Below are positions 3,373 through 12,079 of a stretch of 64,000 bases of DNA, piece by piece. The DNA is from Brumimicrobium glaciale (GTDB lineage Bacteria > Bacteroidota > Bacteroidia > Flavobacteriales_D > Crocinitomicaceae): NCBI RefSeq assembly GCF_004152935.1, contig NZ_SETE01000003.1, positions 124,001 through 188,000 of the forward strand. The letters run 5' to 3'. The position numbers and the translations under genes were made by a program. Every line of letters begins with the position of its first letter. Position 1 is the stretch's first letter. Under the pieces are notes generated by a model. The model ran no database searches. It worked only from the letters and a program-made list of their open reading frames with translations, and was not told the DNA's origin.

Positions 3373-4059
3373 ACGAGAATTTAAAATATGAATCTAATCA
3401 TCCCAATTAATCAATTAAGTTTCCAATTCATTAATTTGAATTAGATTCACTATTGCCCGATTGAACTATACTCCAAACTTCTAGAGTGAAGTCTACATAC
3501 AAACTTGCCTTTCTTTTATTCAATTCTTATTTATTCTTATTGCCCAACAAGCTAATTCGTAATTCTATAAAAAGAGATTCCATTCAATGCGTTTCAAATG
3601 TCATGCGCTGCACTGAGCCAACCAATGCGAGCTGTTCAATGATTATGCAGTAAATAGTTCTAGTTGGTTTTACGGGAAAGAGATTGCGTTCTAAATCACA
3701 ACCACTATTTGGAATATCACTCCCTTCTAGGAAAAGTAAAAAAGGGATTCCTAAATGCTATGTGTTATCGCAATAATGGCTCACTAGGTTTCATTTCTGC
3801 TAAATGTAATTCCACAAGAGAATTCATATTTCACATAAAAACCAAAAGCTTACGATATTTACATTTACGAAACCAAACCAATAGTTTCTAAATTCATCTG
3901 TAATCAATTTATGAAATAGAGATGAATTACTCAGAGAGAAAAGTTATGGACATTAGAAATTAATAAAATTAAATCAGATCAAAAATATGTTAGTTTAATC
4001 ATTAACATATTTTGTCACTTTAAAAATACGAAAACAAAAAACGAGGGGTTTATACCATT

Positions 4060-4125
4060 GTTAGGTTTCATAAGTAGTAGTGTTAAACAAGAGAGAAAAC
4101 GCCCGTTTTCTCTCTTGTTGTTTAT
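4060..4125 (+). ncRNA. Hairpin element copy 2
   Basis: The same 20-base box starts at 4060. The stem at 4086-4119 is perfect over 16 bp but carries AAAACG/CGTTTT where copy 3 has AAAGCG/CGCTTT, a compensatory A-T to G-C exchange. ATTAACATATTTTG ends 46 bases before the box, as in copies 3 and 4. Confidence 0.5.
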
Positions 4126-4319
4126 TAGAACTTCTATCATGATAGCTTGTCCAATTAAATAATCAATAGTTCCATTCAAGAGAGTGACTTGAGCTTGAAC
4201 AATAAAGAATTTTGAAGTATAAATAAGTACAGATTAGACAAAGCAGAGAATAGTATATTCATTAACATATTTTGCCAATTCAAAAATACTAAAACAAAAT
4301 ATAAGAGGTTTATAGCATT

Positions 4320-4385
4320 GTTAGGTTTCATAAGTAGTAGTGTTAAATAAGAGAGAAAGCGCCCGCTTTCTCTCTTGTTGCTTAT
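4320..4385 (+). ncRNA. Hairpin element copy 3
   Basis: The box starts at 4320 and the stem is at 4346-4379 (AATAAGAGAGAAAGCG with CGCTTTCTCTCTTGTT; one U:G pair). The flanks match copy 2 downstream (CTTCTATCATGAT.GCTTGTCC) and copy 4 upstream, so the family grew by segmental duplication while the stem stayed paired. Confidence 0.5.
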
Positions 4386-4934
4386 TAGAACTTCTATCAT
4401 GATGGCTTGTCCAATTAAACAATCAATAGTCCTATTCCAGAGGGTACTTTGAACTTGATCGATAAAGAATTTTGGTTCTATATGATTTTGTGTGGGTTGA
4501 TTTAAAATCCATGGTTTTAATTGAAGCTAAACGATTGTTAATTTGGTTCTACTTTTATTTAAATGGAAACTTTCTATTAAAATACATTTCGCTTAATTTT
4601 ATAAATTCCTGTTATTTAAGTCTTTATTATTCGAAAACCTCCAACTAGCGGACTAACCAACTGAAATACAGACAACCATATTCTTGTTTGTAAAAATAAA
4701 ATGGTGACTTGGATAATTACTTTAAAATACAACTCATGTAGGTTACAGTTAAATTCGTAATAGAACTATTAATTTTTCAAAGGATTAAAATTGATTACCC
4801 ACAGTATTTCATCTAGAGCCAGAATTTTGAAGTATAAATAAGTACAGATTAGACAAAGCAGAGAATAATATATTCATTAACATATTTTGCCAATTCAAAA
4901 ATACTAAAACAAAAAACAAGGAGTTAATAGCACT

Positions 4935-9899: not shown

Positions 9900-9993
9900 G
9901 AGTGGGGTTTGGTAAGTTCACAAATTGAAAACTGATTATTTGGCGCTGAATTGACGATTTTGCATATTTGGATGTGTAATATTTAACAATTAC

Positions 9994-10045
9994 TGCACTT
10001 CTTAATGTGCAATTAGTGCGAATACTTGCACAACAAGATGTGCAA
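9994..10045. promoter_or_regulatory. Paired TGCAC dyads in the metH-ATPase gap
   Basis: TTGCACA (10026-10032) and TGTGCAA (10039-10045) form an inverted repeat with a 6-base spacer. A related dyad TGCAC/GTGCA lies at 9994-10011. No T-tract follows, so an operator is more likely than a terminator. The rest of the 506-base gap holds the 33-bp iteron array and the promoter of the next gene. Confidence 0.4.
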
Positions 10046-10217
10046 TATGAAAGAATTAAGTAAACAAGTTGTGATTTATGAATTACTATGGCTTTCATAC
10101 TGAAGATACATGGCACAATATGATTAATAATTATCAATTAAAGAAATAGTTAAAACCTGATTAACACTGGAAAAATCATCAATTCAAAACAGTTGTTTTC
10201 GTATTTGACAATTAACA

Positions 10218-10350
10218 CTTGGTAAACACCCCTTACTTTAGTCAGTTTTTCATAGTATTTAACCCTTACTTTACTCTAAAATATTGTTAAATTAACCGTT
10301 ACTTATAACAACATATTGAGTTAATTAACCCTTACCCGAAATAATTTCCG
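10218..10350 (+). repeat. Four direct repeats at an exact 33-bp period upstream of the DUF4143 ATPase gene
   Basis: The core CCCTTAC starts at 10230, 10263 and 10329, and the variant CCGTTAC starts at 10296, so successive starts are each 33 bases apart. The wider unit reads roughly TTAACCCTTACTTTA. The sequence between cores is AT-rich and not conserved. The last copy ends 15 bases before the -7 element of the ATPase gene and so occupies its -33 region. A 33-bp period is about three helical turns and would place the sites on one DNA face, as expected of an operator array. Confidence 0.75.
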
Positions 10351-10358
10351 TATATTTG
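10351..10358 (+). promoter_or_regulatory. -7 promoter element of the ATPase gene
   Basis: TATATTTG is an exact TAnnTTTG match 48 bases before the ATG. No TTG is seen at the -33 position, where the fourth iteron lies, suggesting a regulated promoter. Confidence 0.65.
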
Positions 10359-10405
10359 TACTATAGAATACCTAAAAAAGCACAAGACACTAAATTCAAA
10401 AGAAT

Positions 10406-12079
10406 ATGTTTTACCGAAGAATGATAAAAGAATTAGAGCGTTGGCGAACAGATAGTTTCCGCAAACCACTTGTTATTCGTGGCGCTCGACAAGTAGGTAA
10501 AACAACCTTGGTAGATGAATTTGGGAAACAATTTAAACAATATATCCATCTCAACCTCGAATCTGCACAGGACCGTTCTTTTTTCGAAAACTTTCGCGAT
10601 ATCCATCAATTATTTGCAAAAATTCTTCTACACCATAGAATGAAAAAAGAACTTGTAAATGATACCTTACTTTTCATTGATGAAATTCAAGAGATGCCAG
10701 AAGCAGTAAATATCTTGCGTTATTTTAAAGAAGATTTGCCAGAACTAGCAGTAATTTCAGCAGGAAGCATGTTAGAAACTTTACTAGGTAAGAACGTTAC
10801 CTTTCCAGTGGGAAGAGTAGAATACAAAGTACTGCGTCCCGTTTCATTTGAAGAATATTTAACTGCAATGGGAGAAGAACAATTATTAGAAGAATATGCA
10901 AAATTACCAATTGAAAATTACGCCCATTCAAGTTTGCTCGAATCTTTCCACATTTACGCACTAATTGGCGGAATGCCAGAGATAATTCAGCATTATCGAA
11001 AAAACAAAGATATAACAGCACTTGGTCCACTATACGATAGTTTGATTCAATCATATATTCAAGATGCAGAGAAATATGCGAAATCAGATCATCAATTACA
11101 ATTGATTAGATTTTGTATATACCAAACCCTTAAAAAAGCAGGAAGTAGAACATCCCTCACCGGTTTTGGAAATTCGAATTACAGTTCCAAAGAAATTGGA
11201 GAAGTACTGCGTGCATTAGAAAAAACGTATTTAATGCATATATTGTATCCAGTAACTGGCACCACATTACCATTGGAACCAGATCAAAAGAAAACACCAC
11301 GAATTCAATTTCTAGACACTGGTTTAATCAACTATTTTTTAGGATTACAAAAAGACATTATTGGCACACAAGACCTGCACAATGTTTATAAAGGCACATT
11401 AATAGAACATTTAACAGGACAAGAATTACTTGCGCAAAAGACCCTCAGTTTAGATAAACTCCATTTTTGGATTCGTCAAAAAAAACAGTCTGATGCTGAA
11501 ATTGATTTCTTACACGTATATCAAGGAAAAATCATTCCAATTGAGGTGAAATCTGGAGCAAAAGGCACATTAAAATCACTTCAGGTTTTTATGGACAAAT
11601 CGCCACTTCATTTTGCAATACGACTTTACGCAGGTCAAATTCAATTAGATGAATTAAAAACTCAGAATGGAAAGTCTTTTCATTTATTAAGCCTCCCATA
11701 TTATCTTACTGGCAAGTTAGACAAATATATAGAATGGCTTTTTGATAAATTAGGAGACATTCCAGAAACTCAATTTATAGTTGAGGAAAAAAAGGAAAGG
11801 TACGGCAAGAAAAAAAGTGTAAATAAAACATGGAAAATTGATGAATTGGGTAAAAAACACGTCCAAGTTTTAGTGTCCTGTATGAAATCACCTCAAAAAG
11901 GAAGAGTTCTTATTGAAGAGACATTGGGATTGAGCTACCAATCAGTTAATAAACGAAAATACCTTAATTCTTTGCGAGATTTAGAACTATTAGAATTTAC
12001 CGATAAAGAAAATGAAAAAAGCAAAAAACAACGTTATCAATTAACTGAAAAAGGAAGAAGGTATTTAGAAGAGAAATAG
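10406..12079 (+). CDS. AAA_14/DUF4143 ATPase with C-terminal winged-helix domain
   Basis: 557 residues. An AAA_14 ATPase core occupies about 1-190: Walker A GARQVGKTT (residues 26-34), Walker B LLFIDEIQE (about 89-97), then a sensor-like SAGS. The DUF4143 region follows (about 200-400), ending in a PD-(D/E)xK-like motif DAEIDF...IPIEVKSG seen in this family. Most family members stop near 400-450 residues; here a further segment (about 470-557) reads as a winged helix-turn-helix (HVQVLVSCMKSPQKGRVLIE, SYQSVNKRKYLNSLRDLELL, then RYQLTEKGRRYLEEK). Cellular roles of DUF4143 ATPases are poorly defined. The iteron array directly upstream makes DNA binding and self-regulation by the winged helix plausible, but this is inference. 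Confidence 0.85.
   Translation: MFYRRMIKELERWRTDSFRKPLVIRGARQVGKTTLVDEFGKQFKQYIHLNLESAQDRSFFENFRDIHQLFAKILLHHRMKKELVNDTLLFIDEIQEMPEAVNILRYFKEDLPELAVISAGSMLETLLGKNVTFPVGRVEYKVLRPVSFEEYLTAMGEEQLLEEYAKLPIENYAHSSLLESFHIYALIGGMPEIIQHYRKNKDITALGPLYDSLIQSYIQDAEKYAKSDHQLQLIRFCIYQTLKKAGSRTSLTGFGNSNYSSKEIGEVLRALEKTYLMHILYPVTGTTLPLEPDQKKTPRIQFLDTGLINYFLGLQKDIIGTQDLHNVYKGTLIEHLTGQELLAQKTLSLDKLHFWIRQKKQSDAEIDFLHVYQGKIIPIEVKSGAKGTLKSLQVFMDKSPLHFAIRLYAGQIQLDELKTQNGKSFHLLSLPYYLTGKLDKYIEWLFDKLGDIPETQFIVEEKKERYGKKKSVNKTWKIDELGKKHVQVLVSCMKSPQKGRVLIEETLGLSYQSVNKRKYLNSLRDLELLEFTDKENEKSKKQRYQLTEKGRRYLEEK

Follow-up and report, generated by a model that had tools for sequence, protein, structure and literature searches.

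Phased repeats at the promoter of a DUF4143 ATPase gene in Brumimicrobium glaciale: a probable self-operator in a candidate defence family

The direct repeats that precede a DUF4143 ATPase gene in Brumimicrobium glaciale are probably a self-operator of a PDC-S01-type ATPase, serving autoregulation and probably repression. They were studied in a window of 64,000 nucleotides (the whole stretch of DNA that was analysed) together with related genes from many genomes. A sequence-only reading of this DNA had suggested an ATP-dependent self-regulating switch or an iteron-like, DNA-organising element. The autoregulatory part of the first suggestion is backed by comparison, as arrays or dyads occur at promoters across the family and their sequence tracks the protein, but the role that it gave to a C-terminal winged helix is not.

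The array is made up of four copies of a short motif, with CCCTTAC starting at 10230, 10263 and 10329 and CCGTTAC at 10296, and both these coordinates and the 33-bp pitch had been read exactly. The lag-33 self-match score of positions 10206-10405 is 23.2, against a maximum of 9.4 in 2000 shuffles at lag 33 and of 15.5 in 300 shuffles scored at all lags from 9 to 69. Tandem Repeats Finder run on the window reports a period of 33 at 10259-10335. In the whole 4.27 Mb genome, the spaced pattern CCSTTAC-N26-CCSTTAC has three matches, every one inside the window array; its reversed-pattern control has 0 matches, and no second array of the motif was found elsewhere in the genome. The lone CCSTTAC heptamer is unremarkable (6 in the window against 4.3 expected). 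The 11-mer TTAACCSTTAC is found 10 times genome-wide and its reversed control 18 times, which gives no sign of a wider regulon. The last copy, at 10329, lies in the -33 region of the predicted TATATTTG promoter, whose -7 element is at 10351, as the sequence-only reading had proposed; TATATTTG was called a promoter element on the basis of TAnnTTTG, which we take to be the Bacteroidota -7 consensus. Another tandem repeat is present in the window at 3991-4474 (period 260, 1.9 copies, 88% matches).

Table 1 Features of the window discussed in the text
Feature	Position	Strand	Basis or details
Putative fossil operator	9951..10059	+	Match to L241; three units from 9961, 9994 and 10027 (33 bp apart), ATG at 10047
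Operator unit 1	10226..10258	+	Core ACACCCCTTACTTTAG; CCCTTAC at 10230
Operator unit 2	10259..10291	+	Core TTAACCCTTACTTTA; CCCTTAC at 10263
Operator unit 3	10292..10324	+	Core TTAACCGTTACTTAT; CCGTTAC at 10296
Operator unit 4	10325..10357	+	Core TTAACCCTTAC; CCCTTAC at 10329; overlaps predicted promoter
Predicted -7 promoter element TATATTTG	10351..10358	+	TAnnTTTG match
AAA_14/DUF4143 ATPase, 557 aa	10406..12079	+	ORF; PADLOC PDC-S01 model PDLC04788, E 7e-176
AAA_14 domain, residues 19-152	10460..10861	+	Pfam 92.3 bits, cut-off 27
DUF4143 match, residues 232-384	11099..11557	+	Pfam 73.4 bits, cut-off 28.1
Extra C-terminal winged-helix-like region, about residues 481-557	11846..12076	+	Weak profile and structure matches

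The orthologues of the window ATPase (L004) have arrays of the same kind. There are four copies in L005 (89% identical) and three in L006 (87%), both genes lying directly after metH, and L007 to L010 (55-67% identical) have three or four copies each, so that copy number varies among orthologues (3-4) at a constant pitch. The spacers are indeed unconserved, as had been claimed: the window array and that of L005 agree at 41/44 core positions and at 41/88 other positions. The refined core, based on 24 units from seven orthologues, is approximately TTAACCCTTACTTTA and is longer than CCCTTAC; in these units, positions 3, 5, 6, 8 and 10 of the 33-bp unit are invariant, and agreement is at least 92% at positions 7, 9 and 12. 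Counted from the last CCC, the -7 element is 22, 22, 21 and 22 bp away in L004, L005, L006 and L007, respectively, and at a different distance in L008 and L010. No TAnnTTTG element was found upstream of the L009 ATPase. The array could instead be an iteron for replication or transfer, or else a tandem repeat without meaning, since 33-bp direct repeats are iteron-like and slippage makes small repeats. Nevertheless, the cores are kept while the spacers diverge, the number of copies varies without a change of pitch, sites recur across the family well above controls (see below) and no replication-initiator family matches the window protein above its Pfam cut-off (there is a weak Replic_Relax match, E 0.07). 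This explanation is barely credible, and the iteron or DNA-organising role is unsupported, the genome having no second array of this motif either.

The gene that follows the array had been correctly recognized as an AAA_14/DUF4143 ATPase, both domains scoring above the curated Pfam cut-offs (Table 1). Among 62 sequences, residues G31, K32, T34, D92 and E93 of AAA_14 are invariant, as are D367 and K382 of the DUF4143 stretch, and E380 is at least 90% conserved. The DUF4143 match starts with a winged-helix-like segment and continues with the stretch bearing D367, E380 and K382, which we take to be a PD-(D/E)XK motif. The structural model of the window protein (mean pLDDT 78.6) has the same order, a winged-helix-like run inside DUF4143 and then strands with the conserved D...ExK. 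The model of L198, a relative from the main multi-phylum clade (mean pLDDT 93.8), resembles it: a helix-helix-helix-strand-strand run compatible with a winged helix at residues 187-256 precedes the strands carrying D...ExK. The combination of AAA_14 and DUF4143 is that of PDC-S01 in PADLOC and makes the window protein, judged by its sequence, a candidate phage-defence enzyme of this type, its antiviral activity having the same candidate status. According to PMC12988326, S01 is an ATPase fused to PD-(D/E)XK and ranks fourth among the most common defences of prokaryotes, validation being pending for most PDCs.

The Foldseek neighbours of the models include 2qen, 2qby, 1l8q, 1z6t, ORC/Cdc6, Apaf-1 and TnsC, with low TM-scores (0.52 at most, for 2qen, among the 50 rows per search). 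Some of them, namely ORC/Cdc6, the replication initiation factor 1l8q and TnsC, assemble on DNA, and the phasing of the repeats is near whole helical turns. Both observations would suit an array that acts as an activator or nucleation site, on whose phased sites the ATPase would polymerise, activating or marking the DNA. Yet the sites overlap core promoter elements, an arrangement that usually corresponds to repression, and the motif forms only this one array in the genome; we thus regard nucleation or activation as improbable.

The sequence-only reading had ascribed the regulation to the extra C-terminal winged helix. The presence of this domain is plausible but the matches are weak: HTH_45 and Fic-like_C remain below their Pfam cut-offs, PDB 4rgl is matched at E 6e-4 and the model has low confidence in this part. 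When the survey ORFs were searched with residues 479-557, eight ATPases of the family proved to have the domain (L004-L010 and L012), and L595 is a ninth. As L012 starts at a contig end, upstream DNA is readable in 8/9 of these ATPases, and a check for array-less homologues with the winged helix found arrays in all eight (L004-L010 and L595). However, arrays also precede ATPases that are too short to have the domain (L011, L013, L014, L015, L020, L032 and L033), with a pitch of 32 or 33 bp in L011, L014, L020 and L032, whereas L596 and L597, two Schlafen/AlbA_2 proteins with a similar domain at their end, lack an array within the 220 bp examined upstream. The arrays thus go with the ATPase-DUF4143 part. 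The C-terminal winged helix was rejected as the array binder, the regulatory role proposed for it is not sustained and its presence is incidental to the array. In the light of the models, DNA binding is more likely to fall to the winged-helix-like segment that lies within DUF4143.

The distribution of such sites was surveyed across the family. PF13635 was sought in 148 evenly drawn genomes of the phylum to which the window belongs, 71 of which match at E 1e-10. The loci taken were 30 among the matches listed and 80 fetched stretches, which, together with the relatives of the window protein, provided 136 upstream regions. At a score of at least 11, the best lag is 32 in 26 genes, 33 in 18, 22 in 8 and 23 in 3; other lags are found in 28 genes and none in 53. 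These other lags thus concern 28/83 repeat-bearing genes and some of them come from GC-rich or simple repeats. One gene with a long simple repeat (L123) was left out before the counts on 135 genes. A best lag of 31-34 in 200-bp windows is found in 41/135 DUF4143 genes, against 6/609 other ORFs and 0/405 shuffles, and a best lag of 21-23 in 13/135, against 9/609 and 0/405; the 609 control ORFs may include windows near DUF4143 genes, of which the 483 and 369 controls used below were cleared. A dyad with a score of at least 14 or a phased repeat is present in 78/135 genes of this phylum (13/483 controls, 0/135 shuffles) and in 35/91 genes from named genomes and plasmids (10/369 controls, 0/91 shuffles), counts that are not independent because the genes of the family, and also their pairs, are kin. 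The other 57/135 and 56/91 DUF4143 genes are without a site at the thresholds used. The sample from other phyla was made up of the best 80 loci of named genomes among the matches listed and eight plasmid loci, five of them with an anchorable gene; the plasmid genes of Criblamydia (L225) and Acinetobacter towneri (L227) both have a best lag of 32, with scores of 19 and 16.

The repeat motifs differ between DUF4143 ATPase subfamilies. Inspection by eye reveals inverted half-sites in some units, for instance 21 and 11 bp apart in L020, from which a lag of 32 would correspond to about three helical turns and one of 22 to about two. Also by eye, several array-less genes have a single large dyad near their start. 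Related ATPases in many phyla carry other repeats or dyads at what are predicted to be their own promoters. The main clade, made up of 116 genes whose identity to L198 is 36% or more, has an odd-centred dyad with a half-site of approximately TACAAATT, whose centre lies a median of 27 bp before an anchor near the start codon. The dyad scores at least 12 in 70/116 genes and at least 8 in 0/116 shuffles, the model and the data being the same set in this case. A held-out dyad model (36 training genes, 22 of them used) recovered 48/80 genes of named records, a set that spans many phyla and has some Bacteroidota in it, against 0/366 controls; the other 32/80 held-out genes fail the model at a score of 6. 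A recognizable sigma-70-like promoter accompanies 27/49 strong dyads of the held-out set, and 22 of these 27 overlap the -35 box, whereas 200 shuffles have means of 5.8 promoters and 2.4 overlaps with the -35 box, with at most 7 overlapping. Leaderless transcripts are suggested for L198, L153, L151, L193 and other genes, in which no more than a few bases separate the end of the predicted -10 box from the start codon.

The position of the sites is also relevant to a function in mRNA, where repeats or dyads would act as translational operators or hairpins. In L037, L053 and L180 the dyad extends to the start codon, and a hairpin would look alike there. Nevertheless, the window array consists of direct repeats upstream of or on the predicted -7 element, and the 22/27 dyads that overlap a -35 box lie upstream of the transcript, so that an action in mRNA seems very improbable.

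If the ATPase recognizes its own operator, the operator sequence is expected to follow the protein. Operators are similar in 62% of 112 cross-genome pairs at 60-75% protein identity (1% of 98 for the far-upstream control) and in 82% of 44 pairs at 75-90% identity (7% of 42). Same-genome pairs are similar in 8% of 65 cases below 30% identity and in 10% of 20 at 30-35%, against 1% and 2% of the cross-genome pairs at those identities; at 40-45% they are similar in 6% of 17 cases and in the other bins up to 75% in 0/21. Self-recognition is favoured since operator similarity rises with protein identity and that of far-upstream DNA does not, and the comparison, in which same-genome pairs above 50% identity are few, favours an operator sequence that tracks the ATPase rather than the host genome. 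The genome of the window offers an example: its second family ATPase (L032, L244:3246-4601 on contig C4) lacks the C-terminal domain and has its own 33-bp array with a different motif, GTTCTGTTACA. Naming the binding domain by domain-level covariation was tried and dropped, the covariation with the operator being too weak (0.15 for the recognition helix and 0.04-0.10 for other domains, in 965 pairs at 45-55% identity).

Alternatively, a different host-encoded regulator could bind the sites and control a class of defence ATPases. Separate regulators of defence genes exist, as described for BrxR (PMC9122601) and RptR (PMC12255303), and the low-identity pairs from the same genome share operators slightly more than cross-genome pairs do. 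Such a regulator is unlikely, since the spaced array occurs once in the genome, the two ATPases of this genome (L004 and L032) have unlike arrays and cross-genome homologues share operators far more than same-genome paralogues, few of whose pairs exceed 50% identity.

In the self-operator scenario, the ATPase itself would bind sites of about 15 bp that are three helical turns (33 bp) apart, presumably by means of the winged helix inside DUF4143, and its protomers would probably form a cooperating row on one DNA face. The bound array would most likely repress its own promoter, since the last site covers the -33 region, and would keep a potentially harmful effector at a low level; the nucleotide state or an infection might relieve this repression. 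We infer both the binding by the ATPase and the repression of its own promoter from the sequence comparisons.

A functional parallel is found in autoregulated toxin-antitoxin operators, in which a gene product bound to repeats over its own promoter keeps a harmful effector low; by contrast, a single gene seems to be involved here and the sites are phased at 22 or 32/33 bp. The WYL-domain protein BrxR, which according to PMC9122601 is a repressor bound to inverted repeats that precede its own gene, and RptR likewise control defence genes through DNA binding. They are separate regulator proteins, whereas the suspected regulator here is the ATPase effector itself, which has no Pfam match to a WYL domain up to E 1. 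Cdc6/Orc1, DnaA-type and STAND ATPases also combine an AAA+ core with a winged helix, and 2qby is bound to origin DNA, but the window protein differs from them by its PD-(D/E)XK-like part and by sites at promoters, and the TM-scores to them are low (at most 0.52 among the 50 rows shown per search). The consulted portions of PMC12988326 and PMC13356809 contain nothing on operators or regulation. A literature search that left most subscription journals and bioRxiv outside found no description of such operators and, for DUF4143, only a domain listing in a table of one paper.

The surroundings of the window gene add some history. It is located between metH, which encodes the domains of B12-dependent methionine synthase, and a Rieske-domain gene. 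metH was found in 9/10 genomes of the genus and is followed by a window-type ATPase in G000, G003 and G004, by other AAA ATPases in G005 and G009, by a Rieske-type gene directly in G001 and by the same type of gene in G006 and G008, where some 900 bp of other sequence lie in between; neither an AAA ATPase nor a Rieske-type gene was seen after metH in G002. The site downstream of metH is a small hotspot for different AAA ATPases. The stretch upstream of the present array (Table 1) resembles the operator and the beginning of the ATPase gene at the same metH site in G005 (L241), with a score of 25.4, the best of 200 shuffles reaching 16.5. It is probably a fossil operator, left by another ATPase of this kind that has since been lost.

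Arrays that look like family operators were also found in viral contigs. The 17-mer TTTTACCCTTACTTTGT, which is close to the operator units of L014/L032 relatives, occurs in 61 distinct viral contexts; in 41 of these it recurs at a distance of 32-34 or 65-67 bp, and only two further lags were seen, with one instance each. When each array is counted once, 35/55 contexts are so spaced, and 50/80 viral loci with the 17-mer (of 83 stretches found) have a 32-34-bp neighbour. The reversed 17-mer occurs in 17 viral stretches, against 83 for TTTTACCCTTACTTTGT, and none has a 33-bp partner. These counts should be read knowing that TTTTACCCTTACTTTGT was picked from viral matches, only the pitch and the ACCCTTAC core having been fixed beforehand. 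Stand-alone 33-bp arrays close to the L014/L032 operators are present in L288, L247, L271, L312, L321, L459 and other viral contigs. No DUF4143 gene was found in 23 whole viral records (possibly fragments) or in the other fetched stretches, the window protein has no match in viral contigs and a minority of the viral arrays at most are directed towards a phage gene. A stretch of 129 bp in L288 matches Riemerella phages at 72%, and records of Vibrio, Streptococcus and Shigella phages appear in the same search, so that the matches point to no single host. Named phages, searched with a short array query, yielded five weak matches. After the array, L443, L446, L459, L461, L470 and L478 have other short repeated motifs (ACCCGAAAAGGTG and ACCCGATTAGGTA, for example) that may be additional operator-like sites. 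Two other viral signals were rejected. The bare ACCCTTAC pair occurs in 92 stretches at 33 bp, 78 at 36 and 5 at 37, and much of the 92 is coding background since 33 and 36 are both multiples of three; the extended motif alone is informative. The dyad of the main clade is not enriched among viral contigs, its natural spacing being found in 44 stretches and a control spacing in 45.

A broader and more speculative scenario, which we hold to be rather doubtful, is that each DUF4143/PDC-S01 gene forms a defence switch by itself, with an effector that also serves as its sequence-specific repressor, and that some phages carry matching 33-bp arrays as decoys or as co-opted control sites. The presence of a self-operator in many lineages would be the way in which PDC-S01 genes are probably held in check. 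The operators name the DNA that each PDC-S01 protein should bind, which makes binding, derepression and triggering by phages testable. The viral arrays, if bound, would point to counter-defence by decoy and, if this is true, operator recognition itself would belong to the conflict between phages and their hosts.
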